From: Rhizobium sp. NXC14
GTDB taxonomy: Bacteria; Pseudomonadota; Alphaproteobacteria; Rhizobiales; Rhizobiaceae
DNA length: 64,000 nt
NCBI RefSeq assembly: GCF_002117485.1
Contig: NZ_CP021033.1
Span: 372,001 to 436,000 of the forward strand
Reading direction: 5' to 3'
The position numbers and the translations under genes were made by a program. Shown one piece after another: positions 8,239 through 40,355 of the stretch. The notes under the pieces are model-generated. The model had not been told where the DNA came from. It saw nothing but the letters and a program-made list of their open reading frames with translations, and ran no database searches. Position 1 is the stretch's first letter. Each line of letters opens with the position of its first letter.

Positions 8239-8313
8239 TGAACTGAATCAGCACTTGCCCGTTGCGCATCATCAACGCATCGTCCATTGATTTCCCGGAC
8301 AAAGAAGACATCG

Positions 8314-9327: not shown

Positions 9328-9371
9328 CCGAGCAATCACTCGATGCACGACTGTGCTGCAGCCGAAGTCCA

Positions 9372-10676: not shown

Positions 10677-10770
10677 TTGCCTTCACCTTCGTTCAGGCAA
10701 AAGAAAACAGTCCACCACTTTGGTGCCTAAGACGCTTGACTGTGATTCGTGGAAATGCGATTCTCGATGT

Positions 10771-24216: not shown

Positions 24217-24218
24217 AC

Positions 24219-24596: not shown

Positions 24597-24597
24597 C

Positions 24598-25290
24598 ATG
24601 AGGGTTGACCAGCCGTTTGTTCGTAGATCGGCGCCCTTGTCAGCGCAGCGTGAACGTGAAGAGGATCAGCCGCTCGTCATGATCGTGGACGACGACGCAT
24701 CCATTCGCGAGGCGCTGTCGGAGCTGATCCTGTCGGCCGGTTTTCAGCCGGTCAGCTTTGCTTCGACGCGCGAACTGCTCGACGCGGATATATTGAACAG
24801 ACCCGGCTGCCTGATCCTCGATGTGCGCATGCCGGGGGCAAGCGGTCTCCATCTGCAGAGCCATCTGGCCGAGAACGGCATTGCCAAGCCGATCATCTTC
24901 CTGACCGGCCATGGAGATATCCCGATGACCGTCCAGGCGATGAAAGCCGGCGCCGTGGATTTCCTCACCAAGCCTGCGCGGGATCAGACGCTGCTTGATG
25001 CCGTAACCGCCGCCATTTCAATGGACGGCGAACGACGAGCGGAAGCGGCGATCGCCAATCGCAATATCGAACGGCTGGAGACGCTGACGCAGCGCGAACG
25101 GGAGGTTCTGCACGAAGTGGCACGCGGGCGCCTAAACAAGCAGATCGCCTTCGACCTTGGCATCAGCGAAGTGACGGTCAAGCTGCATCGCAGCAACGTC
25201 ATGCACAAGATGGAGGCCGCCTCTATCGGCGAGCTGATCCGGGCCTGGGAAACATTGCCAGTGCAGATGCGTCAGGCGGGGGCGCGTTAG
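24598..25290 (+). CDS. FixJ/NarL-type response regulator 2
   Basis: Response regulator of 230 residues with a 20-residue basic/polar N-terminal extension, then a receiver (VDDDASIREALSEL, LILDVRMPG, FLTGHGDIP, FLTKPARDQ) and a FixJ-type helix-turn-helix (LTQREREVLHEVARGRLNKQ). It closely resembles response regulator 1 in both domains, indicating duplication within the locus. GGAGGG precedes the ATG. It is the last gene of the four-gene signalling operon. Confidence 0.93.
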   Translation: MRVDQPFVRRSAPLSAQREREEDQPLVMIVDDDASIREALSELILSAGFQPVSFASTRELLDADILNRPGCLILDVRMPGASGLHLQSHLAENGIAKPIIFLTGHGDIPMTVQAMKAGAVDFLTKPARDQTLLDAVTAAISMDGERRAEAAIANRNIERLETLTQREREVLHEVARGRLNKQIAFDLGISEVTVKLHRSNVMHKMEAASIGELIRAWETLPVQMRQAGAR

Positions 25291-25968: not shown

Positions 25969-26020
25969 ATAATGAACCACATCGGGAACGGAACGAACGG
26001 CCTGGCGCATGGAGGCGATC

Positions 26021-26686
26021 ATGGACGTATATGAGGCAGTCACAAGCCGACGGTCGGTGCGCGGATTTAAAGACCAGCCTGTGGCGATGGAAATACTTGA
26101 GCGGGTGCTGGCTGCCGCGGCATGGTCCCCGTCAGGATCGAACATCCAGCCGTGGAATACCTACGTGATGACCGGCGCGCCGCTGGCCGAACTCAAGACA
26201 TCAGCCGTCGAGCGCGTGGCGCATGGCGACGCCTGGGACAAGCGGCAGTATGAGATGTACCCCTCCGTGCTGAAGCCCCCCTACGGCGAGCGCCGCTCCG
26301 CCTTCGGCAAGGAACGCTACAGCGCGCTCGGCATTGCGCGCGAGGACTGGGAGGCACGCCAGCGGGCAGCAATCGCCAACTGGAACTGCTTCGGCGCGCC
26401 AGCCGCTCTGTTTTGCTACATCGACCGCGATCTTGGCCTACCTCAATGGGCCGACGTCGGCATGTATCTGCAGACCGTCATGTTGCTGCTTCGCGCCGAA
26501 GGACTGCACAGTTGCCCGCAGATGGCATGGTCGCAGGTTCGCGAGACGGTCGCCGAGGTACTGTCGCCGCCCGATGGGCTGATCCTCTTCTGCGGCATGT
26601 CGATCGGCTACGAAGACCCTGCGGTAAGTTACGCCCGTACGGGCCGCGCCCCACTGGCCGAGACGGTCACGTTTATCGGCGAATAG
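26021..26686 (+). CDS. Nitroreductase-family flavoprotein
   Basis: FMN-dependent nitroreductase of 221 residues. The N-terminal FMN-binding motif SRRSVRGFKDQPV is followed by WSPSGSNIQPWNTYVMTG and the late CGMSIGYEDP segment characteristic of the family. Such enzymes reduce nitroaromatics, quinones or enones with NAD(P)H. ATG at 26021 is chosen because GGAGG at 26011-26015 would serve it; that motif overlaps an upstream ATG at 26009. A second flavin reductase follows 83 bases downstream, suggesting a redox-stress pair. Confidence 0.9.
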   Translation: MDVYEAVTSRRSVRGFKDQPVAMEILERVLAAAAWSPSGSNIQPWNTYVMTGAPLAELKTSAVERVAHGDAWDKRQYEMYPSVLKPPYGERRSAFGKERYSALGIAREDWEARQRAAIANWNCFGAPAALFCYIDRDLGLPQWADVGMYLQTVMLLLRAEGLHSCPQMAWSQVRETVAEVLSPPDGLILFCGMSIGYEDPAVSYARTGRAPLAETVTFIGE

Positions 26687-26769
26687 TTGCTTGGACCCAA
26701 AGGACAGAGACCCCGTCGAGAATTCCGCGTATGATATGTCCTTTATCATGCGGGATACTGGAGAACGCC

Positions 26770-27342
26770 ATGACCACGCATAAAGTAGGCTATCTTATCG
26801 GCAGCCTCGCCAAGGGTTCGATCAACCGCAAGCTCGCCAAGGCGTTGGTGCGCGTCGCCCCGCCGGAACTTGAAATGTCAGAGATATCCTTCAAGGACCT
26901 GCCACTCTACAGTTACGATTACGACGCCGATTACCCTCCGGCCGGCAGGGCATTCAAAGCGGCGATCGCGGCCGTCGACGCCGTGCTGTTCGTCACTCCC
27001 GAATACAATCGATCCATCCCCGGCGGGCTGAAAAACGCAATCGACTGGGCGAGCCGCCCCTACGGCACCAACTCGTTCACACGCAAGCCGTCTGCGGTGA
27101 TCGGCACCTCGCCGGGCGCGATCGGCACAGCCGTCGCCCAGCAGAATCTGCGCAGCGTGCTTAGTTTTTGCAACTCTCCGCAGATGAATGCTCCGGAAGC
27201 CTACATTCAATTCACCCCGGGGCTGATCACCGATGACGGCGAGGTCACGAACGAGAGCACCGCCGATTTCCTGCGCACGTTCATGCGGGACTTCCATGCC
27301 TTCGTCGCAAGGGTTCGCTCAGTGCTGCCGAAAGACGCTTAG
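26770..27342 (+). CDS. NADPH-dependent FMN reductase / quinone reductase
   Basis: Flavodoxin-like reductase of 190 residues. The FMN phosphate loop is at the N-terminus (IGSLAKGSINRKLAKAL), with the hallmark VTPEYNRSIPGGLKNAIDWA. It reduces flavins or quinones with NADPH in the cytoplasm. The start at ATG 26770 begins the domain directly. It forms a probable pair with the nitroreductase upstream and converges on the ABC ATPase at 27523. Confidence 0.9.
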   Translation: MTTHKVGYLIGSLAKGSINRKLAKALVRVAPPELEMSEISFKDLPLYSYDYDADYPPAGRAFKAAIAAVDAVLFVTPEYNRSIPGGLKNAIDWASRPYGTNSFTRKPSAVIGTSPGAIGTAVAQQNLRSVLSFCNSPQMNAPEAYIQFTPGLITDDGEVTNESTADFLRTFMRDFHAFVARVRSVLPKDA

Positions 27343-27522: not shown

Positions 27523-28464
27523 CTACAGCCGATTGGCGCGCAACAAGGTGGCTCGCGACAGATATCCCGCAAGCGTCCCATCGGATGACCTGACATGGAG
27601 GCCCGGCATCTCGCCGGAGAGGATGAGCGCCAAGGCCTCGTGAACCGTGGCGTCAGCGGCGATCTCGGCATCGCCGTTGGACGGTTCCGGCGCGGTCATG
27701 ATCGTCGATACAGCAATCAAACTCAGCCGCTTTATGGCTCGGTCAGGGCCGAGGAAGTTCTCGACGAATTCGTTGACGGGACGCGCAAGAATTTCCTGCG
27801 GTCTATCATATTGGAGAAGGCGGCCATCCCGCATGATCGCGATGCGATCGCCCATCTTGATGGCCTCGTCGAGATCATGCGTGACGATGACGACGGTCTT
27901 CTTCACCTTCCTCAGAATATCGCGGAATTCGTCCTGAAGCCTAACACGGGTGATCGGATCGATCGCGCCGAACGGTTCGTCCATCAGCATGATTGCGGGG
28001 TCTGCTGCGAGCGCACGCGCGAAACCGACGCGCTGACGCTGCCCGCCCGACAATTCGTGCGGCAGGCGCTGCCGCATGACGGCCGGATCAAGGCCGACGA
28101 GATCCAGGAGCTCGTCGACGCGGCGATCGCTGCGCGCCTTGTCCCAACCGAGAAGCCGCGGGACGGTCGCGACATTGCGTGCGATTGACATATGCGGAAA
28201 CAGACCGACCTGCTGGATGACATAGCCGATGCTGCGGCGGAGCTCCTTCTGATCGACCCGGGCTATATCTCTTCCGTCAACCAGCACGCGTCCCGCCGTC
28301 GGCGTTTCCAACTGATTGATCATCCGCATGGTCGTGGTCTTGCCGCAGCCAGAAGGACCAATCAGGGCAACCGTCGTGCCGGTCTCGATCAGCAGATCGA
28401 GATTGTCGACCGCATGCGGGCCGCTTCCGTCGTATTTCTTGGTAACATGATCGAGATGAATCAT
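27523..28464 (-). CDS. Quaternary-amine-type ABC transporter ATPase (OpuCA/ProV-like)
   Basis: ATPase of 313 residues. Walker A GPSGCGKTTTMRMI, Q-loop VIQQVGLFPHM, signature [15 protein letters not shown], Walker B IMLMDEPFGAIDP, H-loop VTHDLDEAI. The GAIDP and MRMINQLE wording is typical of the glycine-betaine/choline/proline-betaine class. The C-terminal 100 residues look like a degenerate CBS region (TVHEALALILSGEMPG). It is the last gene of the 11-gene minus-strand run starting at 38.2 kb. ATG at 28464 starts MIHLDHVTKKYDG; it lies 22 bases after the preceding permease. Confidence 0.93.
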   Translation of the reverse strand: MIHLDHVTKKYDGSGPHAVDNLDLLIETGTTVALIGPSGCGKTTTMRMINQLETPTAGRVLVDGRDIARVDQKELRRSIGYVIQQVGLFPHMSIARNVATVPRLLGWDKARSDRRVDELLDLVGLDPAVMRQRLPHELSGGQRQRVGFARALAADPAIMLMDEPFGAIDPITRVRLQDEFRDILRKVKKTVVIVTHDLDEAIKMGDRIAIMRDGRLLQYDRPQEILARPVNEFVENFLGPDRAIKRLSLIAVSTIMTAPEPSNGDAEIAADATVHEALALILSGEMPGLHVRSSDGTLAGYLSRATLLRANRL

Positions 28465-28486
28465 CCTGATATCCGCTTTCGGCCGC

Positions 28487-29122
28487 TCAGCGCCGTTGAG
28501 TGAAGAGGCGCTCCAGGGTGCCGAAGGCCAATTCCGCAAAGATTGCGAGCAGGGCTATTGGCACCGCTCCGACGAGAAGGCGCGGCATGTTCATGATCGC
28601 AATGCCGGCATTGATGAAATCGCCAAGCCCGCCGCCGCCGATAAAAGAGGCTAGCGCCGCCCCACCGATGACCTGGATGGCGCTCGTCCTGACGCCCGAC
28701 AGAATCGCGGGAACGGCCAGGGGAAGTTCGATCTCCCACAGCATCTGCCCCGAGCTCATGCCCATTCCATCCGCCGCATCGATCACCGAGGCGTCGATCT
28801 CGCGGATGCCGATGATCGTGTTCAACAATAGCGGCGGCACGGCCAGGACGATGAGGGCGATCACGGACGGCAGCAATCCGATGCCGAGAAAGGGCATCGT
28901 CGCCGACAGGATCGCAAGGCTGGGGATGGAGCGCAAGGCGCCGGCAATATTGACCACCGCAAAGGCGGCGCGCGGTGCCCGTGCGACGACAAATCCGAGC
29001 GGCACCGCGATGACAAAGGCGATGCCGAGCGATAGGACGCACATCAGAAGATGGCGATTGAAAGCCGTGAGGAAGGTACCGGAATTGTTGAAGATCCAGC
29101 TGAATGCATCGATAACGATCAT
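28487..29122 (-). CDS. Quaternary-amine-type ABC permease 1
   Basis: OpuCB/YehW-like permease of 211 residues with five to six membrane segments. The EAA-type loop ASVIDAADGMGMSSGQMLWE and the family-typical GGAALASFIGGGGLGDFINAG are present. It overlaps the second permease by 4 bases. The two small permeases form a heterodimer with the ATPase at 27523. Confidence 0.93.
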   Translation of the reverse strand: MIVIDAFSWIFNNSGTFLTAFNRHLLMCVLSLGIAFVIAVPLGFVVARAPRAAFAVVNIAGALRSIPSLAILSATMPFLGIGLLPSVIALIVLAVPPLLLNTIIGIREIDASVIDAADGMGMSSGQMLWEIELPLAVPAILSGVRTSAIQVIGGAALASFIGGGGLGDFINAGIAIMNMPRLLVGAVPIALLAIFAELAFGTLERLFTQRR

Positions 29123-29751
29123 GCTACCTTCCCTCCGCTGCGCCGGCGCAGCAGCTTTTCGAGCGAGGCAAAACAGTAGTCGGCAAAGAGCGCCAGAAAC
29201 GACGTCAGCAACCCGCCTGCGATGATCTTTTCAGGAAAGCGCTGGTCGATGCCTTCGAAAATTATGACGCCGAGCCCGCCGGCATTGATATAGGCGGCAA
29301 CAGTCGCAATGCCGATGACCGTCACCATGGCGATGCGAAGCCCGCCGACGATATAAGGCACTGCCAGCGGCAGTTCGACTTCCCAGATCCGCCGCGCCGT
29401 GCCGTAGCCCATGCCATCGGCGGCCTCCAATATGTCACGCGGAATAGCCTGAAATCCCATGCCGATATTGCGGATCAGGATCATCAGCGAATAGGCGGCA
29501 AGACCGGTTATGGCGGGTGCCGCGCCGATGCCCATGATGGGAATGAGAAGCGCAAACAGCGCCAGGCTCGGCACCGCAAACAGGATACCAGTGAAGATGA
29601 CGATCACGGCAAAGCTCCGCGGCCGCCTTGCCGCCCATATCCCGACGATCAGCGAGATCACCAGGGCAATGCCAACCGAGGAAAAAACGAGATAGAGGTG
29701 CTCCAACAGTGCTTCGAATAGCCGGTCGAGATGTTTAGGGACCCATTTCAT
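29119..29751 (-). CDS. Quaternary-amine-type ABC permease 2
   Basis: Second OpuC-type permease, 210 residues: an N-terminal MKWVPKHLDRLFEALLEHLY, then membrane segments, the loop RDILEAADGMGYGTARRIWE, and YINAGGLGVIIFEGI. ATG at 29751 is chosen because upstream in-frame sequence has no similarity to the family. It follows the PhnD-like gene by 37 bases and overlaps the next permease. Confidence 0.92.
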   Translation of the reverse strand: MKWVPKHLDRLFEALLEHLYLVFSSVGIALVISLIVGIWAARRPRSFAVIVIFTGILFAVPSLALFALLIPIMGIGAAPAITGLAAYSLMILIRNIGMGFQAIPRDILEAADGMGYGTARRIWEVELPLAVPYIVGGLRIAMVTVIGIATVAAYINAGGLGVIIFEGIDQRFPEKIIAGGLLTSFLALFADYCFASLEKLLRRRSGGKVA

Positions 29752-29788
29752 CGTCGAGACCTCCGCATCGGGGCGCTCTTTCGCCTGT

Positions 29789-30607
29789 CTACCATGAGAT
29801 CCCCAATCTGCGATCGGCGTCGTCTGCTCTCTGCGGCAGAATATCGTAGGCCGAGGGAACGACCGTTGAGAACCGCTTGAGGCCGAGCTGCACCAGAACC
29901 GCCGCTCCCTCAGCCGTTCCATGCAATGTCACGAGGCTTTGCTGCAACGCTGCGGCGACGCCCGACGGCAATGTCTGCGAGGCAACCAGCAGCGGCGCCG
30001 GAAGCGGTTCGGTCGTCGCCAGAATACGCAGACCATCGATCGCATCGGGTTCGTGCATCCGCAACAATTGGAAGGCGTAAGCGTCGATCGCACCCGCATC
30101 GATCCTGCCGTCCTTGAGGGCGGCGACGATGCCCGACGGGTTGAGCAGCGGTCCGACCGTCATGCTCTGCTTCATTTTCCCGGCAAACCGGTCGGCAAGG
30201 AAAGAACGCGCTGCGTGATAGCCCGATTGGGAATCGCGCACAGTCCAGCCCCAGCGTGCCGCTGCGAGATCCTCCACAGCGTTTACCGGCCCGGTGGAGG
30301 CGACGAGAATGTGGCTGGCGTAGAGCGGCTGGTCCAAAGACCATGCCTCGCTCGAGACGGGTGCGGCAAGCACCGTCGGTCGCGCAGCCTCGGGCATGTG
30401 CGAAAACGGATAGCCGCACATGAAGACCGCTCCCATGTCCGGCCTCGCCCACAGCTCCGACAACGGTGCCGGTGCTGCGTGAGCGATGATCTCGAGTTCG
30501 ATGCCGGACTGCAGACTGACCTGCGCAAACAGCGCATCCCACAGGCCGCGAATGCACGGACTGAGATTATACATTCTCGAACAGGCGATCGGCTTGGACA
30601 ACACCAT
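29789..30607 (-). CDS. PhnD/SsuA-like substrate-binding fold protein without signal peptide
   Basis: A 272-residue protein with the fold of phosphonate/phosphite-type binding proteins: MGAVFMCGYPFSHM, WTVRDSQSGYHAARSFLADR, DGRIDAGAIDAYAFQLL, and TTEPLPAPLLVASQTLP match the usual landmarks. No signal peptide is visible, so it may be cytoplasmic: a ligand sensor, a carrier or an enzyme-like orphan domain. It is embedded in the betaine-type transport operon, 5 bases after the cyclodeaminase-like gene. A start further upstream that would add a signal peptide is not available without overlapping that gene. Confidence 0.8.
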   Translation of the reverse strand: MVLSKPIACSRMYNLSPCIRGLWDALFAQVSLQSGIELEIIAHAAPAPLSELWARPDMGAVFMCGYPFSHMPEAARPTVLAAPVSSEAWSLDQPLYASHILVASTGPVNAVEDLAAARWGWTVRDSQSGYHAARSFLADRFAGKMKQSMTVGPLLNPSGIVAALKDGRIDAGAIDAYAFQLLRMHEPDAIDGLRILATTEPLPAPLLVASQTLPSGVAAALQQSLVTLHGTAEGAAVLVQLGLKRFSTVVPSAYDILPQRADDADRRLGISW

Positions 30608-30612
30608 GGCAA

Positions 30613-31617
30613 TTATGCGAACCGCAGCCGTTGGCCGATGTTCATCTCTCTTGCCTTGTCGACCATGGCGGCGCCGAGCGCCACATCGGTGGTGCTGAGG
30701 CCGCGGTGCCAGAACAGGATCGTCTCCTCATCGCTCTCGCGGCCGGGCTTCCTGCCGCAAATGATCTGGCCGATTTCGGCGTGCAGGTTCTCGGCCGTCA
30801 CCTTGCCCTCGTCGACGTGACGGCGAAGCGCCCCGAAAGGCTTGCCGGGGCCGCATTGTCCCCAATCGTCGACGACGACCTTGTCCATGATGTCCGTGAG
30901 ATCGAATTCGAGTGCGCTCATCGTGCCATAGGGCACAACGAATGCTCCCTTCTTGACCCATTCGGTCTTGAACAGCGGCGCCGGTTCCGGCAGGCGGCTG
31001 GCCTCGACCATGATGTCGGCGTCCTTGAGGCAATCCTCCCAATTGTCGGTAACGACGATCTTCTTGCCGAGATCGGCCTCAAGACGCTTGGCGAAGGCAT
31101 TGCGGCTTTCCGGGCGGCGCGAATGCACGCGGATTTCCTCGAAGTCGAAGAGATGGTCGAGAAGTCGGACATTCCAGTAAGAGGTTCCGCGCGCACCGAT
31201 ATGACCGAGCACCCTGCTGTCCTTGCGAGCGAGATATTTCGCGCCAAGAGCGGTGACGGCGCCGGTGCGCATGTCGGTGATGGCAGTCGCGTCGATGATG
31301 GCCTTCGGCACACCCGTATTCGGGTCGAACAGGTTGAGGACCGCAAGCTCCGAAGGCAGGTCCACCTTGTAGTTGTCGACGAAGTCGCCGACGACTTTGA
31401 CGCCGGCATAATTCAGCGCTTTGACATAGCCGCGAAGCACATTGAAATGGCCTTTGTCGGAGCTCTCCGGCACAAGATGAACCCGCGGCTCGATGACGGT
31501 TTCACCCCTGCCCTGCGCATCCAGCGCCTTCGACACCGCATCGAGAATCTCGTCATTGGTCAGCCCCAGCGCCTTGGCATCGAGGGCGTTGAGATAATCG
31601 ATCCAGATTTCCTGCAT
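30613..31617 (-). CDS. Ornithine cyclodeaminase / mu-crystallin family enzyme
   Basis: NAD(P)-dependent enzyme of 334 residues. The dinucleotide region is unusual, GHIGARGTSYWNVRLL in place of GxGxQA. DATAITDMRTGAVTALGAKYLA and the catalytic-site neighbourhood DDWGQCG are recognisable family features. Members convert ornithine to proline or reduce imines/ketimines; others act in ectoine and opine pathways. Here it accompanies a betaine-type transporter and a lyase homologue, so it probably handles the amino-acid-derived substrate or a product. ATG at 31617 is chosen on domain start. Confidence 0.88.
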   Translation of the reverse strand: MQEIWIDYLNALDAKALGLTNDEILDAVSKALDAQGRGETVIEPRVHLVPESSDKGHFNVLRGYVKALNYAGVKVVGDFVDNYKVDLPSELAVLNLFDPNTGVPKAIIDATAITDMRTGAVTALGAKYLARKDSRVLGHIGARGTSYWNVRLLDHLFDFEEIRVHSRRPESRNAFAKRLEADLGKKIVVTDNWEDCLKDADIMVEASRLPEPAPLFKTEWVKKGAFVVPYGTMSALEFDLTDIMDKVVVDDWGQCGPGKPFGALRRHVDEGKVTAENLHAEIGQIICGRKPGRESDEETILFWHRGLSTTDVALGAAMVDKAREMNIGQRLRFA

Positions 31618-31700
31618 TTCCCGCTTCTCCACATTCCTGCCCGCTGCCGACCGGACGGATTTTCGAACAACCCCTTGAAAGGATCGCCGCCCCAGACCGC

Positions 31701-31720
31701 GGCCGGATGGATATCCGGCC
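31701..31720 (-). repeat. Stem-loop after the betaine-type binding-protein gene
   Basis: GGCCGGAT-GGAT-ATCCGGCC: a perfect 8-bp stem with tetraloop, 15 bases after the binding-protein stop and before the cyclodeaminase-like gene. No T-tract follows. It is likely an mRNA processing or stabilising element. Confidence 0.6.
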
Positions 31721-31735
31721 ACGGGGGCATGACAA

Positions 31736-32623
31736 TCATTTCGGCAGCAGGCCGTTTTCCTTCAAGAAGTCGACCGCCACGTCCTTGGCTTCCTCGTGAT
31801 CGGTCTCGACCTTGGCATTGAGGACCCGCATTTTCTCATTGTCGAGATGGGAGCCAACCGCTTCCAGCAGTTCGGCAACCTTCGGGTTGGCCTTGAGCAC
31901 GTCCTGGCGAACAACGGGCGCCACGTAGTAGGGCGGAAACAGACCTTTGTCGTCTGCCAGCGGCACGAGGTTCTTCGAGCCGATCTGCCAGTCGGTCGCT
32001 GCACCGTTGGCAACGTCGATGTCCTTTTGTTCCAGCGCGTCGTAACGAAGACCAAGCTTGGCGAACTGCTTGAACTCCTTGAACTCGGCGTCGTAGACGC
32101 GCTTCAGACCGGGCAGGCCGTCGGCGCGATCGGGAAATTCAGCACCGCCGCCGAAGACCAGTGTCTTGGAGACCTTGGCGAGATCCGACAGGCTCTTCAG
32201 ATTGTTGGCCTGCGCCGTTTCCTGCCGGACGACGATGACATAGCCGTTGTTGATGCCGCTCGGCTTCAGCCATGTGAGGTTGAATTGCTTGGCGTAGAAG
32301 TCCTTGACCTGGGTGTAGACCTTGTCGGCATCGGTCGACATCTCGCCCTTGACGACAGACGCGAGCGCCGTCCCGGTATATTCCGGATAGAGATCGATCT
32401 CGCCGGCCACCAATGCCTGATGCGCAATCAGCGTGCCGCCGAGATTGATCTTGCGCTCGACCGTGAAGCCGGCGTTTTCCAGAACGGCTGAATACATTTC
32501 AGCGAGGATGAACTGCTCGGTGAAATTCTTGCTGCCGACCTTGATAGTCTCTGCGGATGCAGACTGGAACATGACGGCTGCGATGATGCCGGCTGCAAAT
32601 ATGCCCTTTGTCCAATTTTTCAT
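31736..32623 (-). CDS. Quaternary-amine-type periplasmic binding protein (OpuCC/OsmX-like)
   Basis: Binding protein of 295 residues with a Sec signal peptide (KGIFAAGIIAAVMFQSASA). The mature N-terminus ETIKVGSKNFTEQFILAEMY, NLGGTLIAHQALVAGEIDLY and PEYTGTALASVVKG are hallmarks of the choline/glycine-betaine OpuBC/OpuCC class. The aromatic residues that would cage a trimethylammonium group cannot be placed without a structure. ATG at 32623 is chosen because GAGGGA lies 6-11 bases upstream; the ATG two codons earlier is too close to it. Substrate: a quaternary amine or compact amino-acid betaine, unproven. Confidence 0.92.
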   Translation of the reverse strand: MKNWTKGIFAAGIIAAVMFQSASAETIKVGSKNFTEQFILAEMYSAVLENAGFTVERKINLGGTLIAHQALVAGEIDLYPEYTGTALASVVKGEMSTDADKVYTQVKDFYAKQFNLTWLKPSGINNGYVIVVRQETAQANNLKSLSDLAKVSKTLVFGGGAEFPDRADGLPGLKRVYDAEFKEFKQFAKLGLRYDALEQKDIDVANGAATDWQIGSKNLVPLADDKGLFPPYYVAPVVRQDVLKANPKVAELLEAVGSHLDNEKMRVLNAKVETDHEEAKDVAVDFLKENGLLPK

Positions 32624-32737
32624 AATCATTCCCTCTTGTTGACTTTTCAATGAACGAACCGGCGGCATCCCCAGAATAACCGTCGGCATGACCGGTCGGC
32701 GCCCTGCCCTTCTTGGTGGGGCAGTGGCGAACCGGGC

Positions 32738-34243
32738 TTATTGCGGGCCAAGCCCGATCAATGCGGCGATCGTCGCAAAATCCGGCCCCTGCGCGCGGTC
32801 CTCTTCAAGCGCCGGGACGTGGCTGCGGACGAATGCATAGGCCCCGGCCGATCCCTTGCCCAATTCGCCTGAGACGCCGCGCAGCTCGAGGGCCTGTGCC
32901 GAGGCAATCAGTTCGATGGCGACGAGATAACGCAGGCGCTCGACGATCGCCTGCGTCTTTGCCAAAACGCTCGGGGCCATCGACGCCTGATCTTCGACAC
33001 CATCGGCGACCGGAAGGGGCGAGAGCGAAACTGGCATGGCGAGATGACGGATTTCGGCTTCCATGGCCGAGACGGTCTTTTGCACTGTCGCAAAACCGGT
33101 CCGGCTCTGGCCCATCGGGGTCAGGAAGCGTGGAAGGTCGGACATGCCAGGCGACATGATCTTCATGATCCGATAGGCGGTGCCTGCCGCACAATGCGCC
33201 ATCGCCTGCCCCAGCCGTTCCCAGGCGAGGACAAAAGCGGTCATGTCGAAATTGCCATGCGCAAGAATGACGCCCTCTGAGGCGATGACGACAGGATTGT
33301 CGCTGGAGCTGACGAGATCTATCTCCGTCGCCTGCCTTGCCTCATCGATCGCATGCCTCAACGCACCCCAGACCTGCGGCGTGCAGCGGTAGCTCAATGG
33401 ATCCTGGAGACGTCTTGCGGCATCGGCGGCGAGCAAGGAGCTTCCCGAAAGCAACTCCATCAGCTGAGCGGCGACGCGGCGCTGCCCGAAGGCCGGTCTC
33501 GCAGCCAGAGCGCGGTCGTCGAAGACGCTGACATTGGCCCTGAACGCTTCGAAATTAACGGCAATCGCCTTCAGAGACCAATCGAAAAGCCGCTCGATAT
33601 CCTCAAGCGCCAAGCAGGCGAGGCCGATGGAGAGGCTGTTGGCCACGACAAGCGCATGCCCGTCCTTCGGCGCCAATTCGAGAGGTTTCAGGCCGGCCCT
33701 TTCCAGGGCGATGCCGGCCGGCAGCACTTCGCCGCCAAGCTCGATCTCGCCGAAGCCGAGAAGCGCCCGGCTCATATGGGCAAGCGGAGCCAAATCCGCA
33801 GCACCGATCGAGCCCAATGACGGGACGACAGGATGGACACCTGCGTTGATGGCGGCGATCAGACCACGGAACACGTTCAGCGAAATGCCGGAACCGCCCG
33901 CCGCCATGCCGACTGCCCTGACGGCCATCATCGCCCGCACGGATTCCTGGGCAAGCGGCTTTCCGACGCCGACCGCGCGGGCTTGCGGCACACGCATCTG
34001 AAACGCCACCAGATCTTCCGTTGCAAGTCGTGTATCGACCCCCGCTCCCAGTCCCGTCGTCAGGCCGTAAACCGGCAGATCCCTTTCCGTATAGCGATCG
34101 ACGACGGCGCGCGCCGCCATAATCCGGGCCTCGACCTCGGCGGAGATTTCGATCCTGGCGTGACGACGGGCAATTGCCGCGATGTCCTCGACCGTCGGTG
34201 GCGACGCGCTGAAGGTGATCGATGGAGAATGGGTGGCGCTCAC
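32738..34243 (-). CDS. Histidine/aromatic ammonia-lyase homologue lacking the MIO triad
   Basis: HAL/PAL superfamily protein of 501 residues. The early active-site Tyr region is present (VYGLTTGLGAGV) and so are downstream landmarks (QDPLSYRCTPQVWGALRHAI, SSSDNPVV). The segment that in histidine ammonia-lyase reads G-A-S-G-D-L-A-P is here GSIGAADLAPLAH (about residues 144-156). The Ala-Ser-Gly triad that cyclises to the MIO electrophile is replaced by Ala-Ala with a one-residue deletion, so MIO cannot form. It may be a cofactor-free lyase for substrates with a better leaving group, as described for ergothionase. The start is a GTG overlapping the regulator stop (GTGA). Confidence 0.88.
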   Translation of the reverse strand: MSATHSPSITFSASPPTVEDIAAIARRHARIEISAEVEARIMAARAVVDRYTERDLPVYGLTTGLGAGVDTRLATEDLVAFQMRVPQARAVGVGKPLAQESVRAMMAVRAVGMAAGGSGISLNVFRGLIAAINAGVHPVVPSLGSIGAADLAPLAHMSRALLGFGEIELGGEVLPAGIALERAGLKPLELAPKDGHALVVANSLSIGLACLALEDIERLFDWSLKAIAVNFEAFRANVSVFDDRALAARPAFGQRRVAAQLMELLSGSSLLAADAARRLQDPLSYRCTPQVWGALRHAIDEARQATEIDLVSSSDNPVVIASEGVILAHGNFDMTAFVLAWERLGQAMAHCAAGTAYRIMKIMSPGMSDLPRFLTPMGQSRTGFATVQKTVSAMEAEIRHLAMPVSLSPLPVADGVEDQASMAPSVLAKTQAIVERLRYLVAIELIASAQALELRGVSGELGKGSAGAYAFVRSHVPALEEDRAQGPDFATIAALIGLGPQ

Positions 34244-35007
34244 TGCTTCTCTCCGAGAATGGCGACGGGCTTCGAAGGACCCTTGGTGGACCGCGCTTCC
34301 AGCCGATATTGCGCGCCGGGATAGTATAACAGCGCGCAGGTCACGACGGCCTCGCCCGACCAGGTCCTTCGAAAGACGCGCAGGCAAGGGTGATCATTCT
34401 TCAGGCCAAGATATTTGCGGATCGTCGTGTCCGGTTTGACGGCCTGGACGATATGTTCGAACGCCGTTATCGGCGCCACCTTCGTCAGATATTCGTTCGG
34501 CGTCATGCTGCTGAAATCGGTCGACAGATAGTCTGGCGCGACCAGCGGATTGACGTAGCGCTCCTCGACCTGAATGGGCTGGTCGTTTTCCAGGTGCACG
34601 ATCAGCGAATGCATCACCTCAGCGCCGAGGGTCAGTTCGAGCGCGTCGGCAACATTGGCATCCGCCTTCATCAAACCGGCCTGGACAACCGCCGCCTTGT
34701 GCGTGTGACCCCGCTCCAGTATTTCGTCGGCTATGTTGCGAATTTGAAGCAGATCGACGTCAAGGTGCTTTGGCGACACGAAGGTTCCGATGCCGGCGGA
34801 TCGCTTGAGGACACCCTCGAACATCAACTCCCGCAGCGCCCGGTTCGCCGTCATGCGGCTGACGCCGAATGCCGCCACCAGTTCGCTTTCGGAAGATACC
34901 CGGTCTCCCGGCTGCAGCTTGCCCTCGGCAATCTCGGCCAGGATCTGCTCCTTGATCCTGATATATTGGCGCGCCTCGCTGGCGGCCGGCTTGACCGCTT
35001 TCGTCAT
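34240..35007 (-). CDS. HutC-like GntR regulator with UTRA domain
   Basis: GntR/HutC-family regulator of 255 residues. The winged helix is near residues 12-80 (QILAEIAEGKLQPGDRVSSE, FGVSRMTANRALRELMFEGV), followed by a UTRA ligand-binding domain (MHSLIVHLENDQPIQVEERY, TWSGEAVVTCALLYYPGAQY). HutC proteins bind urocanate and control histidine catabolism. Here the regulator sits inside a run with a HAL homologue, so its effector may be an unsaturated acid. Its likely operator is the palindrome at 38228-38241. It overlaps both neighbours by a few bases. Confidence 0.93.
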   Translation of the reverse strand: MTKAVKPAASEARQYIRIKEQILAEIAEGKLQPGDRVSSESELVAAFGVSRMTANRALRELMFEGVLKRSAGIGTFVSPKHLDVDLLQIRNIADEILERGHTHKAAVVQAGLMKADANVADALELTLGAEVMHSLIVHLENDQPIQVEERYVNPLVAPDYLSTDFSSMTPNEYLTKVAPITAFEHIVQAVKPDTTIRKYLGLKNDHPCLRVFRRTWSGEAVVTCALLYYPGAQYRLEARSTKGPSKPVAILGEKQ

Positions 35008-35855
35008 GACAGCCTCGCCATGCCATTGTCGAGGATGGTCACGCCCCGGGAAGCAACGATCCCCCGGAAGCGAATTTCAGCGTCGTTGCGCCACATCTGC
35101 AGGGTGATCGTTTCTCCGGGAAAGATCGCTGCGCTGAACCGCGCCGCGATCGCGCTCAAACCGGCAGCCATCCCTGGATCGATGGCGGCGATGATGGCGT
35201 AGCCCGCATAACCGAAGCTGCATAGCCCATGCAGGATCGGCCGATCGAAGCCGCTGCTGCCCGCTGCCCGTGGGTCGACATGCAGCGGATTGCGATCGCC
35301 GTTCAGGCGATAAAGCAGCGCGGCGTTACCGGGGATGTCGACGTTGAATTCGACGTCAGGCTCTCTGTCCGGGACTTTGGACAGAGGTTCAGGCGCTAAT
35401 CCCGCCGAACCGCAGCCACCGTCGCCGCGGCAGGCGTTCGTCTGCACGATCGTCGCGATCGGCTCGTCACCGTCCACGGTTGCGATCATGCGCTCGAAGC
35501 TGACGAACATGGCTTTCTCAACGCCGCGATCGACCACTGACAAGACGCGCGACCGGGAGATCAGCGGCACATCGAGAGGGACCGGCCGGTGGATCGCCAG
35601 GCGATGTTCGGAATGCACCAGACGCGCCCAGTCGACACCCGTCTGCTGCATCCAGGGGCCCGGATGCGCCACGATATTGGCAAGCGTCGGTGCAGTGACC
35701 AGATCGCGTTCGTAGACGTAGTTCAACGCGTTTTCGTCGAGCGGGTTGGTGCCGTAGCCGACCGACAGGGCGTAGAGGATGGCATCCCTTGCGGTGACCA
35801 CATGCGTCGCTTGCGGCACCGGGAAATCGAGAATGGATTGGGCCGACAGCGTCAC
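35004..35855 (-). CDS. MaoC-type (R)-specific enoyl-CoA hydratase
   Basis: Double hot-dog hydratase of 283 residues. The C-terminal half carries the hydratase-2 active-site block DRNPLHVDPRAAGSSGFDRP followed by ILHGLCSFGYAG, with the Asp/His pair in place. The N-terminal half resembles that of peroxisomal hydratase 2 (YALSVGYGTNP). It adds water to a trans-2-enoyl-CoA. The start is a GTG overlapping the SDR stop (GTGA). Together with the CoA-transferase and dehydrogenase it makes a short beta-oxidation-like module; no thiolase is present. Confidence 0.92.
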   Translation of the reverse strand: MTLSAQSILDFPVPQATHVVTARDAILYALSVGYGTNPLDENALNYVYERDLVTAPTLANIVAHPGPWMQQTGVDWARLVHSEHRLAIHRPVPLDVPLISRSRVLSVVDRGVEKAMFVSFERMIATVDGDEPIATIVQTNACRGDGGCGSAGLAPEPLSKVPDREPDVEFNVDIPGNAALLYRLNGDRNPLHVDPRAAGSSGFDRPILHGLCSFGYAGYAIIAAIDPGMAAGLSAIAARFSAAIFPGETITLQMWRNDAEIRFRGIVASRGVTILDNGMARLS

Positions 35856-36658
35856 GATGCGGCTCCGCTGGATGCCACGGGTTTGCGAATGCCACCGGAC
35901 AGGCGGATGCCGCCGTCGACGGAAAGCAATTCGCCAGTGACGAAGTCTGCCCCCTGAACAAGCCAGACAATCGCGCCGGCAACGTCTTCCGGCGTTGCGA
36001 CCCGGCCGAGCGGCGCGGATTCCGAAAATCGCTTGGCAATGGCGCCATAGGCATCCGGCCCGAGCGTATCGCGCATCCAGCGCGTATCGATGATGCCGGG
36101 GCAAACCGCGTTCACCCGGATATCGGGACCGCAGGTGCGCGCTAGCGCCAGGGTCAGCGCATTGAGCGCGCCCTTGGAGGCCGTATAGGCAAGCGAACTG
36201 CCGCCGCCGGTAAAGGCAACGTTGGATGAGACATTGACGATCGCACCGCCGCCGCTGTCACGCATCGCAGGCACCGCCGCCCGGCACATCTGGTAGGCCC
36301 CGATGACATTGACGCCGAAAACACTCTGAAAATCCTCTGCCGACAATGTCTCGAGATCGAAAGGATCCGATTTGACCGTCGTTGCGGCATTGTTCACCAG
36401 GGCGTCGAGCCGCCCCCACCGTTTAACGGCCGTCGCAACCATCCGGCGGCAGGCCGCATCGTCGGCAACATCGGCCTGGACGATCTCGACCTGCGCGCCC
36501 AGGCTGCGGCAGATATCGGCCGTTTCATCGGCCTCTTTCTTGCTGCGGCTGTAATTGACCACCACCCGGGCACCGCCCTCGGCGAACTGCTTCACGCATG
36601 CGGCCCCGACGCCTGTTGCCGAGCCCGTGACGATGATGACGGCTCCATCGATTTTCAT
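35852..36658 (-). CDS. Short-chain dehydrogenase/reductase
   Basis: Classical SDR of 268 residues: cofactor motif TGSATGVGAA near residue 11, NNAATTV, catalytic Ser in VNVSSNVAF, YTASK (Tyr and Lys), PGIIDT, and the C-terminal GELLSVDGGI. Asn-Tyr-Ser after the second strand suggests NADP or mixed cofactor use. By context it is a candidate 3-hydroxyacyl-CoA dehydrogenase acting after the MaoC hydratase. Its start overlaps the CoA-transferase stop (ATGA). Confidence 0.92.
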   Translation of the reverse strand: MKIDGAVIIVTGSATGVGAACVKQFAEGGARVVVNYSRSKKEADETADICRSLGAQVEIVQADVADDAACRRMVATAVKRWGRLDALVNNAATTVKSDPFDLETLSAEDFQSVFGVNVIGAYQMCRAAVPAMRDSGGGAIVNVSSNVAFTGGGSSLAYTASKGALNALTLALARTCGPDIRVNAVCPGIIDTRWMRDTLGPDAYGAIAKRFSESAPLGRVATPEDVAGAIVWLVQGADFVTGELLSVDGGIRLSGGIRKPVASSGAAS

Positions 36659-38205
36659 GGGGCAGAGACCTTCATTGCGTGGGTGGAAAACAGGCGCGCA
36701 TCCATCTGTTTCAGCTGGTCCGACACCGCGACGCCCTTCGGCAGGCGGTCGAGAACGTGGGCGGCGAGATCGATGCCGGGGGCAAACTCCGTCAGCGTCA
36801 GGCAGCCGTCGATCACCTGAAAGACCGCCCGCTCGGTGACGACGAGCTGTGTCTGCCCTTCCGACGCAAAGGCCGGGCTCGAACTGATCTGGTCGACGTG
36901 GTCGACGATCTTGCAAACTCTGCCGTCCCGGATGATGTCGAGCCTGCGGTCGGCAACCGCAATTTCCGCGCCGCCAGCCGAAAACGCGCCGAGATAGACA
37001 ACACGCCTCGCCGTCTGCGAGATGTTGGTGAAGCCACCGACGCCAACGATGGAATTGTTGAAGCGGCTGACATTGACCGCACCGTACCTATCCACCTCGG
37101 CCATGCCGAGAAAGGCGATATCGAGGCCGCCGCCGTCGTAAAAGTCGAACTGCGAAGCCTGTGGGACGATCGCGGTCGGATTGACGGCAGCGCCGAAGGA
37201 TAGTTCCTCGGCCGGCACGCCACCGATTACGCCGGATTCGATCGTCACCGTATAATCGTCAAATCCCTCTTCGCTGGCGATACGGCCGATCCCGGCGGCA
37301 ATGCCAATGCCGAGGTTGATCGTCGGGCGATGGAGCGGCGCCAGCTCCAGGAAGGCGCGGCGCTGAATAATCTTATCGGCCGACAGCGGCGCCGGCTGCA
37401 GACGGCTCGCCGCCATGCGGACGCGCCCGGTATAGGCGATATTGTCCTTCTCGGCGAAATTGACGCCGTGCTGGGCCGGATTTTCGCAGATGACAACATA
37501 ATCGACCAGCGCCGCCGGGATGCGAACATCGCCCGGCGGCAGCGAGCCACGCTCCGCAATCCGCTTGACCTGCACGACGACGATACCGCCGGAATTTCGG
37601 CCTGCTTGTGCCATGGCAAGCACGTCGAGGGGAAAGGCTTCGTCCTCGAGGGTGATGTTGCCGTCTTCGTCGGCCGTCGTACCGCGCAAAAGCACGCAGT
37701 CGAGCGGCATCGAGGGATAGAGCAGCCATTCCTTGCCGCGCAACGACACACGCTCGACAAGCGCGCGCGGCGTCGTCGCATTCATACGGCCGCCGCCATG
37801 CAGCGGATCCATGAAAGAACCGAGCCCGATATGGGTGATCACCCCAGGCTGACCGGCGGCAATCGCTCGATAGAGCTGGGCGATAACGCCTTGCGGCCAG
37901 CAATGCGCTTCGATCTTTTCCTCGATCGCCAGCCTGCCAAGGCGCGGCGTTCCTCGCCAGCCCCCGGCGATCACGCAGGCGACGAGCCCTTCATAGCCAA
38001 AATGCCCCATGCCGCGCGTCTGACGATCGCCCGTGCTGGCAGCAAACAAGAGCGTGAGATTGCGGGGTTTTCCAGAGGCGACGAAACGCTCCTCCACCGC
38101 AGCCGTGATGGCCTCGGGGTGGCAGAATCCTCCAAAACCCGAAGCAGCGACCGTCATCCCGTCTTCGAGGAGATCCGCAGCCTGCTGTGAAGAGATGACC
38201 CGCAT
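36655..38205 (-). CDS. Acyl-CoA:carboxylate CoA-transferase, fused alpha-beta (propionate CoA-transferase type)
   Basis: Family I CoA-transferase of 516 residues with both halves in one chain. The N-terminal half has VAASGFGGFCHPEAI and HIGLGSFMDP; the C-terminal half contains the catalytic Glu in TVTIESGVIGGVPA and INLGIGIAAGI. It moves CoA from acetyl-CoA or similar to a short or unsaturated acid. It is the first gene of the run. ATG at 38205 is chosen; a TTG six codons upstream is possible. A palindromic operator lies 23 bases upstream of the start. Confidence 0.93.
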   Translation of the reverse strand: MRVISSQQAADLLEDGMTVAASGFGGFCHPEAITAAVEERFVASGKPRNLTLLFAASTGDRQTRGMGHFGYEGLVACVIAGGWRGTPRLGRLAIEEKIEAHCWPQGVIAQLYRAIAAGQPGVITHIGLGSFMDPLHGGGRMNATTPRALVERVSLRGKEWLLYPSMPLDCVLLRGTTADEDGNITLEDEAFPLDVLAMAQAGRNSGGIVVVQVKRIAERGSLPPGDVRIPAALVDYVVICENPAQHGVNFAEKDNIAYTGRVRMAASRLQPAPLSADKIIQRRAFLELAPLHRPTINLGIGIAAGIGRIASEEGFDDYTVTIESGVIGGVPAEELSFGAAVNPTAIVPQASQFDFYDGGGLDIAFLGMAEVDRYGAVNVSRFNNSIVGVGGFTNISQTARRVVYLGAFSAGGAEIAVADRRLDIIRDGRVCKIVDHVDQISSSPAFASEGQTQLVVTERAVFQVIDGCLTLTEFAPGIDLAAHVLDRLPKGVAVSDQLKQMDARLFSTHAMKVSAP

Positions 38206-38227
38206 GACGATCTTTGTTTCCAACCGA

Positions 38228-38241
38228 CCTGTATATACAGG
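38228..38241. promoter_or_regulatory. HutC/GntR-type operator before the CoA-transferase operon
   Basis: CCTGTATATACAGG is a perfect 14-bp palindrome with the TGTATATACA core typical of HutC-subfamily GntR regulators. It lies just upstream of the first gene of the minus-strand run, which encodes a HutC-like protein. It would control the whole set from 38.2 down to 27.5 kb. Confidence 0.75.
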
Positions 38242-38305: not shown

Positions 38306-39385
38306 TCAGCCGATGTCAAGCAGCCCCATCAAGCAAAACCCAAGAGCCGCCAGAGCCAGAAGTGACAGCGCCGCCGCTGCAAGGACCCGGCCGCCGGCAC
38401 GGGTGATGGATCTCACATTGACGGAGAGACCTAGCGCGGCCATGGCGGTGACGGTGAAGGCAGCGGAGACAGCCGACATCCCGGCCAGCAGCGGCGCCGG
38501 GATTGCGTCGAAGGAGCGAAGCGCCGCCATGGCTGCAAAGCCGAGGATGAACCATGGCAGAAGATGGCGGAGATTGACTGCGGAGCCACCGGGACGGCGG
38601 CGATGAACTGCGCCGAGCACAAGAATGACGGGTCCGAGCATCATCACGCGGATCAGCTTGACGAGCGTGCCTACCTGGGTGCTGACGGCTCCGGCAGAGG
38701 CTGTGGCTGCCAACACCTGCGGCACGGCATAGGCTGTCAGCCCTGCGAAAACGCCATATTGTACGGCGCTGAGCCCCAGGACCAGATGCAGAAGCGGCAG
38801 CGCCAGCACCGCACCAACGCCGAGCAGCGCGGTAAAGGCTATCGAGGCAGCGATATCCTCCGGTTTCGCGCCGATGACAGGTGCTGCAGCGGCAATCGCT
38901 GAATTGCCGCAGATCGAGTTGCCGCAGGCAACCAAGGTCGCTAGGCCGGTCGACAGCCCCAATAGCCGCGCGAGCAGAAAGCTGCCGGCCAGGGACAGAG
39001 CAACCAGGACGGCAATTCCGCCGACAAGCGGCAATCCGGCCTGTCGGATGGCAGCCGTGCTGAGCGAGGCGCCCAGCAACACGACGGCAATCTCGAGCAG
39101 CGTCTTGGCGGCGAAGTTAATGCCTGGAGTGAAAGTCTGCGGAAGACGGATCGAGGAGCGCACGGCAATGCCAATTAGAATGGCCAGCACGAGGCTCTCT
39201 ATCCAGTGCGCGCCGAACATCATCATCTGCAACCGCTCGACTAACTGCGCAATGATCGCGACTGCCGCGCAAAAGAAAAGTCCCGGCAGGACAGCAGGAA
39301 GCGACGGGGAACGTGAGACGGAAACGAGCATGGGCAAGACCTTGCGGAATGCTTCACTGTCCCATACTCGATTGTCGCCTTCCAT
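38306..39385 (-). CDS. YeiH/UPF0324-family membrane protein
   Basis: Integral membrane protein of 359 residues with about ten hydrophobic segments. Family landmarks are ILIGIAVRSSIRLPQTFTPG, LLGASLSTAAIRQAG and LVACGNSICGNSAIAAAAPV. The family is annotated as putative sulfate/sulfite exporters (YeiH in E. coli, next to the LysR gene yeiE). Here too a LysR gene is divergent, 46 bases away. The start may be at 39385 or at the second Met (MLVSVSRSPSLPAVL). Confidence 0.9.
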   Translation of the reverse strand: MEGDNRVWDSEAFRKVLPMLVSVSRSPSLPAVLPGLFFCAAVAIIAQLVERLQMMMFGAHWIESLVLAILIGIAVRSSIRLPQTFTPGINFAAKTLLEIAVVLLGASLSTAAIRQAGLPLVGGIAVLVALSLAGSFLLARLLGLSTGLATLVACGNSICGNSAIAAAAPVIGAKPEDIAASIAFTALLGVGAVLALPLLHLVLGLSAVQYGVFAGLTAYAVPQVLAATASAGAVSTQVGTLVKLIRVMMLGPVILVLGAVHRRRPGGSAVNLRHLLPWFILGFAAMAALRSFDAIPAPLLAGMSAVSAAFTVTAMAALGLSVNVRSITRAGGRVLAAAALSLLALAALGFCLMGLLDIG

Positions 39386-39431
39386 TGAATAGTTTAATAT
39401 AGTTCATTCGGTGAAATCGAACGATTGCGTC

Positions 39432-40355
39432 ATGACCTTCGAACAGCTCTCCATTTTCATAGCGGTTGCCGAACGCGAGCACCTGACCAACGGCGCCTCG
39501 GCGATCAGCCTCACGCCATCAGCCGTCAGTTCGGCCATCCGCAATCTCGAGGCCTCCTATGGGGTCCAGCTTTTTCACCGTGTCGGACGGCGCATAGAGC
39601 TGACATATGAAGGGCGGGTGTTTCTGGGGGAGGCAAGAGCCACTCTCGCACGCGCAAGAGCCGCAGCGCTCGTCTTGTCCGATCTCGGCGGCCTGCAAAA
39701 GGGTGAGCTCGTTGTTTTTGCCAGTCAGACGATCGCAAGCTATTGGCTGCCAGCGATGCTGATGCGTTTCAAGACCCGCTATCCGGGCATCGACCTGAAG
39801 CTGGTGATCGGCAATACGGCCATGGCGGCAAAAGCGGTTCTCGATGGATTGGCGGAAGTCGGTTTCGTCGAAGGCAGCGTTGATGAGCCGGCACTGAATG
39901 TTCAGCCGCTTGCCAAGGACGAACTCCTTGTCGTTGTCGGTCCGCGCCATCCCTGGGCGCGTGGCAAACCGATTGCCCCGGCGGAGCTGGTTTCGGGCAC
40001 AAAATGGGTCATGCGGGAAAAGGGGTCCGGAACCCGGTCGGCTTTCGAGGCGGCGATTTCCAATCTTGGCATTGGCTCCGGAGATCTGACTGTCGCGCTT
40101 GAGCTGCCATCGAACGAAGCCGTCATATCGGCAGCAAGAGAAGGCCTCTGCGCAACGGTCGTTTCCGGAGCCGTGGCCGCGCCGCTCTTGACGCAAGGTC
40201 TGTTGGTAAAGGCGCGTTTTCCCTTGCCGTCCCGCCAGTTTGCAATCCTGCGGCACAAACAAAGACACTCCAGCCGTGCCTCGTTGGCGCTGGAAACGAT
40301 TTGCCGCGAAGACAGAGCTGCCGAAGTCCAAAATCGCGATGACTGGGTCCTCTAA
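39432..40355 (+). CDS. LysR-family regulator (YeiE/CbbR-like)
   Basis: LysR regulator of 307 residues. The helix-turn-helix is near the N-terminus (LTNGASAISLTPSAVSSAIR, LEASYGVQLFHRVGRRIELT), followed by an effector domain beginning KGELVVFASQTIASYWLPAM. ATG at 39432 is preferred; a GTG at 39411 adds seven residues. It is divergent from the YeiH-like gene and so is its probable regulator. YeiE in enterobacteria responds to sulfite; whether that holds here is unknown. Confidence 0.92.
   Translation: MTFEQLSIFIAVAEREHLTNGASAISLTPSAVSSAIRNLEASYGVQLFHRVGRRIELTYEGRVFLGEARATLARARAAALVLSDLGGLQKGELVVFASQTIASYWLPAMLMRFKTRYPGIDLKLVIGNTAMAAKAVLDGLAEVGFVEGSVDEPALNVQPLAKDELLVVVGPRHPWARGKPIAPAELVSGTKWVMREKGSGTRSAFEAAISNLGIGSGDLTVALELPSNEAVISAAREGLCATVVSGAVAAPLLTQGLLVKARFPLPSRQFAILRHKQRHSSRASLALETICREDRAAEVQNRDDWVL

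Follow-up and report, generated by a model that had tools for sequence, protein, structure and literature searches.

What is degraded by an operon that joins a quaternary-amine transporter, a lyase of the histidine ammonia-lyase (HAL) family and a HutC-like repressor, and that lacks the other genes of histidine utilisation (hut)? The question is raised by a run of open reading frames (ORFs) on the minus strand of Rhizobium sp. NXC14, at 27523-38205 of the window, the whole 64,000-nucleotide stretch analysed (contig NZ_CP021033.1, 889 kb long, positions 372,001 to 436,000). The eleven genes on one strand proposed in an earlier note, made from the letters of the DNA alone, are all real ORFs free of internal stops. 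Their order of transcription is coenzyme A (CoA)-transferase, short-chain dehydrogenase/reductase (SDR), MaoC-type hydratase, HutC-like repressor, lyase, OpuAC-type binding protein, ornithine cyclodeaminase/mu-crystallin family protein (OCD), PhnD-like protein, two permeases and an ATPase. Pfam and NCBIfam scans found no thiolase, hutU, hutI or hutG among the eleven. To judge from the sequence, the operon appears to be a hut satellite, because its promoter shares a HutC operator with the hut promoter and because the OCD tracks urocanase (HutU) across the class. The reading favoured here, tentatively and at slightly less than an even chance, is that this satellite handles an alpha-trimethylammonium imidazole amino acid, namely hercynine or ergothioneine.

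The lyase and its conserved partners

Alignment at the 4-methylideneimidazole-5-one (MIO) site gave GSIGA-ADL for the lyase, GSVGASGDL for HAL and SSIGE-GDI for ergothionase. The MIO triad Ala-Ser-Gly is missing from the lyase, as the earlier note had seen. The HAL-family fold was confirmed by PF00221 and by comparison of a predicted structure (mean pLDDT 91.1), for which ergothionase from Treponema denticola (6s7j) was the top match with a TM-score of 0.94, HAL giving 0.92-0.94. The best PDB match by sequence was again 6s7j, with 269 bits vs 240 for HAL. Equivalents of Tyr53, Arg283, Phe329 and Glu414, whose functional roles we assume from HAL, are kept in the alignment. Identity as a standard HutH was rejected on the missing triad and on a score of 376.4 bits against a TIGR01225 cut-off of 539.15. 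With ergothionase closest in both sequence and predicted fold, the elimination that the earlier note placed at the start of the pathway would plausibly be of the ergothionase kind.

The genes around this lyase were compared in several sets of genomes. Among 61 genomes, the present one included, 20 had the OCD at E 1e-60 or better, and the same 20 had the lyase at E 1e-80 or better, the two side by side in each. A search of other Rhizobiales for the gene set, as recommended in the earlier note, thus did reveal co-occurrence of lyase and OCD, there and beyond. Identity across genus-level groups was 62-97% for the OCD and fell to 34-48% between groups for the lyase. For named relatives only the loci of the best 80 of 551 were kept, more being in existence, so that this sample leans to close relatives; lyases were counted at identities of at least 36% and lengths above 400 bases, ORFs were picked by script and many were named by eye from translations. 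The lyase was in the stretch at 63 of these 80 loci, in 60 of the 63 no more than 1.5 kb from the OCD, and a PhnD-like gene was present in 48 of the 63. Ala-Ser-Gly was found in none of the 63 readable lyase rows from the named loci (65 rows aligned, with L083 and L117 unreadable at the MIO site and L104 distant at 27% identity). The recurring core is therefore the lyase beside the OCD, often with the PhnD-like gene.

Four types of neighbourhood were seen around this core in the genus-level set. Type A is the operon as in the window; type B has lyase, OCD and PhnD-like genes and no transporter; type C is a bare OCD-lyase pair flanked by housekeeping genes; and type D has OpuAC, permease and ATPase genes, then a pair of luciferase-like monooxygenases ahead of OCD and lyase, with a PhnD-like gene coming next in L036. 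The CoA-transferase, MaoC and SDR genes occurred together in 20 of the 80 OCD loci, always with the lyase, and this makes them an accessory of type A. The earlier note had made CoA activation, hydration and oxidation the backbone of the pathway. Since lyase and OCD also recur in settings that lack the trio, paired on their own, beside luciferase-like genes or inside hut clusters, that backbone is not supported and the CoA steps are probably peripheral.

The OCD matched PF02423 and the fold of its superfamily, the fold comparison assigning the superfamily only, and it fell far below the cut-offs of all the NCBIfam models listed, including the ornithine cyclodeaminase equivalogs. SbnB, AlaDH and P2C reductase were tied at the top of its solved relatives, which also include imine reductases. 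Its segment PYGTMSALEFD aligns with NAIGADGPGKQELD of AlaDH, where we take the Asp to be catalytic, and Arg64, His306 and Arg307 are invariant in 22 rows. The nearest solved relatives of the PhnD-like protein are of the AioX/ArrX type; its CGxP and DSxSG motifs are invariant in 7 rows and no signal peptide was seen by eye. The transporter is of the quaternary-amine type, as the earlier note had stated, on the agreement of Pfam (PF04069, OpuAC), NCBIfam (a TIGR01186-like ATPase) and PDB matches, and EgtUC is among the PDB matches of the binding protein at 163-167 bits.

The HutC operator and the link to histidine utilisation

The perfect HutC operator 10-mer TGTATATACA lies in the operon promoter at 38230-38239. 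The canonical site is given as TGTA-N2-TACA in a 2026 HutC paper (PMC12977541), and the promoter contains exactly this pattern. The end of the locus in the earlier note, 38241, happens to take in the operator, which that note missed. Only three copies of TGTATATACA occur in the 6,686,318-base genome: one here, one in the true hut promoter (the hutI/hutF interval) and one inside an ORF of another contig. Across 100 loci there were 31 copies vs 0.37 expected from base composition. Of the 35 loci that have a HutC-like gene, 25 carried the exact box, as against 1 of the 65 that have none; many of these loci are close relatives and not independent. In the one exception, Salinicola L089, the 21 kb retrieved show no HutC-like gene, and a box precedes both hutU and the lyase operon, which stands behind hutU-BCCT-lyase-hutI-hutG. 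When the CoA trio was present, the box was no further than 50 bases from the CoA-transferase match in 19 of 20 loci and the twentieth had a one-mismatch site.

The repressor itself is 52% identical to the HutC of the hut locus in the same genome and equally similar in its DNA-binding part (37/75) and its effector part (83/166); it falls under the cut-off of a second HutC model (NF011575, 233.7 vs 424). Lyase, OCD and PhnD-like genes are clustered with hutU in L100, L101 and L116, the L100 stretch having no hutH, and in L107 and L110 hutU is near the OCD with no lyase. The urocanases of L100 and L101 scored 953 and 990 bits against Pseudomonas urocanase and are closest to true urocanase. The statement that this is not a standard hut locus is correct locally, but incomplete, given a canonical HutC operator common to the hut promoter and an OCD that tracks urocanase.

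The tracking was examined in a class sample of 289 genomes; the p-values for co-occurrence make no correction for phylogeny or genome size. The OCD was carried by 19 genomes, urocanase by 76 (75 over cut-off), the MttB family by 61, and homogentisate dioxygenase (HmgA), used as a control, by 35 over cut-off; the lyase (E 1e-126) was in 7, and the PhnD-like protein in 10 at 218 bits or more and in 35 at E 1e-30. All 7 lyase genomes also have the OCD (p 1.6e-9); in 5 of these the two genes lie on different contigs or 1.6 Mb apart. HutU was present in 18 of the 19 OCD genomes (p 1e-10), or 17 over cut-off (p 2.7e-9), the exceptions being G344 with a partial gene and G298 with none. MttB was present in 16 (p 1.6e-9) and both together in 15, and no OCD was found in the 189 genomes having neither. 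Nine of the 10 genomes with a PhnD-like protein of at least 218 bits carry the OCD, and the HmgA control was over cut-off in 5 of the 19 (p 0.06). Urocanase was also over cut-off in all 38 searched genomes with named OCD loci (from 40 of the 80 loci). Such a nested pattern, in which the lyase falls inside the OCD set and the OCD inside the hut set, along with MttB, would be expected if the OCD substrate were both histidine-derived and quaternary.

Proposed function and rival explanations

The betaine would be imported by the ProX/OpuC-type ATP-binding cassette (ABC) transporter, and the lyase, with the HAL catalytic frame and no MIO, would expel trimethylamine to give a urocanate-type acrylate; MIO may not be needed because trimethylamine is a good enough leaving group. 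The OCD, with or without the PhnD-like protein, would convert the product of the lyase, or the betaine before it, into a form acceptable to hut. HutC-like repressors would leave TGTATATACA upon binding urocanate or an analogue, giving induction together with hut, and the CoA-transferase, MaoC and SDR of type A would perhaps deal with acrylates that HutU refuses. Ergothioneine, one of the betaines suggested in the earlier note, is possible on this scheme, and hypaphorine enters through a rival; stachydrine, trigonelline and carnitine are not favoured because they are not histidine-type.

Several observations weigh against this reading. If hercynine were the only substrate, the lyase would already yield urocanate and the OCD would have no job. 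The OCD stands without the lyase in 17 of the 80 named loci and in 12 of the 19 class-sample genomes that carry it, and the lyase was in the stretch for only one of 19 OCD loci from 18 other class-sample genomes. Arg replaces the His83 of ergothionase in 18 of 18 paired lyases read in the genus-level set (G011 and G030 left out), although His83 is retained in six lyases from Betaproteobacteria (L099, L101, L102, L113, L116 and L120). With up to three mismatches there are 2 operator sites in the window vs 3.1 expected, so it is the exact match, where it lies and how it recurs that carry the case for the operator. The exact box was not found in type C and D loci, nor in 10 of the 35 loci where a HutC-like gene is present. 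The HmgA control is not clean: it rises to 6 of 19 (p 0.02) when the split gene of G298 is added and to 13 of 19 vs 6.0 expected (p 7e-4) at E 1e-3, where most matches are weak and partial. HutU and MttB are themselves associated (37 genomes vs 16 expected), as are HmgA and HutU (21 vs 9.2). Part of the signal must then reflect a general tie of catabolic genes in larger genomes, the tie to HutU being the stronger. On this recount the histidine-betaine reading was moved from an even chance to just below it.

Further doubt comes from the rest of the genome. A cluster on the chromosome (L121, G000:C1:340001-360000, at 3115-10786) encodes a MIO-less lyase (GSIGCADI) with urocanase-like, S-Me-THD-like, amidohydrolase and M20 proteins, a set that we take to match the published ergothioneine route. 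That route reportedly proceeds via thiourocanate hydratase, in work by Beliaeva et al. in 2021 and by Muramatsu et al. Another MIO-less lyase is found in the hut region of the same genome, and both candidate substrates may therefore already be served. The binding protein, in addition, apparently has Phe and Tyr at the positions of Gly244 and Phe293 of EgtU (motifs GSKNF and EYTGT, compared with the text of the paper); according to that paper, glycine-betaine ProX has Phe and Tyr at these same positions (PMC9732360). Ergothioneine as sole substrate was not retained as the main idea, since the EgtU motif and the separate route speak against it, and it is weighed only as a rival.

In that rival, a special case whose chances overlap with those of the favoured reading and which is itself rather unlikely, the OCD would be an NAD(P)H-dependent desulfurase acting on ergothioneine to give hercynine or on thiourocanate to give urocanate, with sulfur leaving through a YeiH-type protein. 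This would explain why the OCD is kept with differing lyases and why hut is needed. It is consistent with the imine reductases among the solved relatives of the OCD and with a YeiH gene adjoining the operon in Rhizobium, Aminobacter and Aureimonas, and a thiourocanate desulfhydrase is reported from gut bacteria (PMC13405746). However, YeiH is found in only 13 of the 63 lyase loci (Aminobacter L079 and Aureimonas L086 among them), and the apparently unmatched EgtU signature and the second ergothioneine-type route tell against it. We know of no OCD-family member acting on a thione. The alternative of a non-imidazole aromatic betaine such as hypaphorine, for which elimination, CoA-transferase activation, MaoC hydration and SDR oxidation would be the main route, is likewise unlikely. 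It is favoured by the overlapping genes and by the trio sharing an operon with the lyase, both here and at the other loci noted above, but lyases 75-78% identical occur where the trio was not found (e.g. L055, L059-L062), no thiolase accompanies it, and the HutC operator and the urocanase co-occurrence would be left unexplained.

Two other rivals give the OCD a different substrate or a separate life. Lyase and OCD might act on an N-alkyl, opine-like amino acid, the OCD removing or adding the N-substituent. SbnB, an enzyme of N-substituted glutamate, is among the tied top structural matches, and the invariant Arg64, His306 and Arg307 may mean an anionic ligand. As a secondary amine would leave poorly if no MIO assists, and as the OpuAC/ProX-type transporter, the BCCT neighbour in L089 and MttB in 16 of 19 OCD genomes all indicate quaternary amines, this is improbable. 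The OCD and PhnD-like proteins might instead function in an amino-acid or methylamine pathway of their own and only share regulation with the lyase. Many genomes have the OCD alone or, by eye, with peptide-type ABC, TTT or TRAP genes, and PhnD-like genes stand next to dimethylglycine dehydrogenase-like ORFs in L184, L185 and L188 (also by eye). Nevertheless, at the cut-offs used, no genome of the 289 had the lyase and lacked the OCD, even where the two were unlinked, and two-gene OCD-lyase units occur amid housekeeping genes. Although raised slightly by the HmgA recount, the chance of mere co-regulation is judged small.

Operon layout, neighbouring genes and comparison with known systems

The features are collected below, with gene starts adopted from the annotation of plasmid pRL12 of R. 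johnstonii 3841. That plasmid has an identical gene order, and its annotation calls the lyase (RL_RS36655) hutH and the regulator hutC. In 59 of 75 matching plasmid records a single place covered at least 80% of the 10.7-kb stretch; the closest record is from R. lentis and the closest named lyase from R. leguminosarum. The earlier description of most genes as overlapping is true of five of the ten junctions, each a 4-base overlap (CoA-transferase/SDR, SDR/MaoC, MaoC/HutC, HutC/lyase and permease/permease). The other five are gaps of 5 to 118 bases.

Features of the operon and its surroundings (positions in the window)
Feature	Position	Strand	Basis
ABC ATPase, ProV-like, 313 aa	27523..28464	-	PF00005; TIGR01186 311.1 bits, below cut-off 326.6
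ABC permease, second	28487..29122	-	PF00528
ABC permease, first	29119..29751	-	PF00528
PhnD-like protein, 272 aa	29789..30607	-	PF12974
OCD, 334 aa	30613..31617	-	PF02423
OpuAC/ProX-type periplasmic binding protein, 310 aa	31736..32668	-	PF04069, PDB matches
MIO-less lyase, 501 aa, GTG start, Arg at HAL position 83	32738..34243	-	PF00221
HutC-like GntR/UTRA repressor, 255 aa	34240..35007	-	TIGR02018 282.6 bits, cut-off 220
MaoC-type hydratase, 283 aa, GTG start	35004..35855	-	PF01575 + PF22622
SDR, 268 aa	35852..36658	-	PF13561/PF00106
CoA-transferase, two-domain, YdiF-like, 516 aa	36655..38205	-	NCBIfam + PDB, best 2ahu YdiF; start via pRL12 homologue
Putative HutC operator CTGTATATACAG	38229..38240		operon promoter, 23 bases before CoA-transferase ATG
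YeiH-type membrane protein, possible associate	38306..39385	-	PF03601; relative's annotation: putative sulfate exporter
LysR-type regulator, divergent from YeiH gene, possible associate	39411..40355	+	translation, relative's annotation

On the other side of the operon, nitroreductase-like and FMN-reductase-like ORFs lie on the plus strand at 26009-27342; the operon has a nitroreductase relative nearby in L041, L043 and L048, and none was seen in L042. Three consecutive response-regulator-like ORFs (23575-25290) follow a 1250-residue ORF (19826-23578).

The survey of relatives also gave observations on other lyases and partners. Another group of MIO-less lyases, with GS(A/V)GY at the MIO site (L122, G000:C3, 18597-20000; L089, 3398-5032; L023, 273-1823), occurs in hut regions; in Salinicola a BCCT transporter accompanies it, and L023 has it with an ABC set of the quaternary-amine type, preceded by a HutC box. 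This group is a candidate hercynine lyase. The idea that the OCD always needs the lyase of the operon was dropped after a check of 31 OCD genomes (G375 and G098 look like one genome), as many of the 30 lyase-family loci read were MIO-type HutH or GS(A/V)GY, three rows being unreadable at the MIO site. The L101 lyase from Bordetella has an N-terminus resembling a signal peptide by eye, and three lyase-type ORFs clustered with a PhnD-like gene in L183 (G344:C211, 764-13269) are 29-36% identical to it and also have signal-like N-termini by eye. On contig G169:C516 a divergent MttB-family gene (2049-3557) is beside an Arg83-type lyase (235-1704), with the OCD on another contig. Luciferase-like monooxygenases ahead of OCD and lyase characterise the type D loci L035, L036, L106, L111, L112, L117 and L119, and possibly oxidise trimethylamine or sulfur. 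An OCD-lyase pair in L037 (G054:C82) is near apparent glycine cleavage and dimethylglycine dehydrogenase genes, and L188 has an MttB-like ORF as well as its PhnD-like gene (all by eye).

The lyase and the hut pathway are of known kinds, and the dependence on OCD and PhnD-like proteins is the part without precedent in the literature searched. Judged by titles and abstract openings, the PMC papers searched include none about these genes or a hercynine lyase, and locus tags prefixed pRL12073, pRL12074 or pRL12075 were not found in them. One possibility, judged unlikely, is that the OCD, with its PhnD-like partner, performs a new reaction in which sulfur is removed from a 2-thioimidazole (ergothioneine or thiourocanate) at the expense of NAD(P)H. 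This would open another aerobic path for ergothioneine, entering histidine degradation at urocanate and controlled by HutC. If the histidine-betaine reading is true, MIO-less betaine lyases annotated as histidine ammonia-lyase would form an accessory layer of histidine utilisation, through which soil and root bacteria would free trimethylamine from histidine betaines. Pathway context would also be gained for an OCD subfamily and for a family of PhnD-like proteins, both now bearing generic or misleading names, and the gene set is testable in a standard laboratory strain, Rhizobium johnstonii 3841.

Parts of the operon can be set beside known systems. The binding protein belongs to the OpuAC/ProX class, as does that of the ergothioneine ABC transporter EgtU, but at Gly244 and Phe293 it apparently has, by motif, the residues described for glycine-betaine ProX. 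The thiourocanate-hydratase route of L121 likewise begins with a MIO-less lyase, but continues with urocanase-like, S-Me-THD-like, amidohydrolase and M20 proteins, with no OCD or PhnD-like ORF among those listed; conversely, a urocanase-like hydratase is absent from the eleven operon genes and present at G000:C1. Within the family of SbnB, AlaDH, P2C reductase and BhcD, the OCD has motifs of its own, GHFN-LRG and WHRGL. With HutH and the hut pathway the operon shares the lyase family, a HutC regulator over an NCBIfam cut-off, an identical operator and urocanase in 18 of 19 OCD genomes, whereas its lyase lacks Ala-Ser-Gly and stays at 376 bits against the hutH cut-off of 539, and hutU, hutI and hutG are missing. 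The closest likeness is to T. denticola ergothionase, with which the lyase shares the HAL fold without MIO, the one-residue shortening at the MIO site, Leu at 280 and the equivalents of Tyr53, Arg283, Phe329 and Glu414; it differs in being only 31-32% identical and in having Arg for His83, and its genomic partners here are OCD, PhnD-like and HutC.

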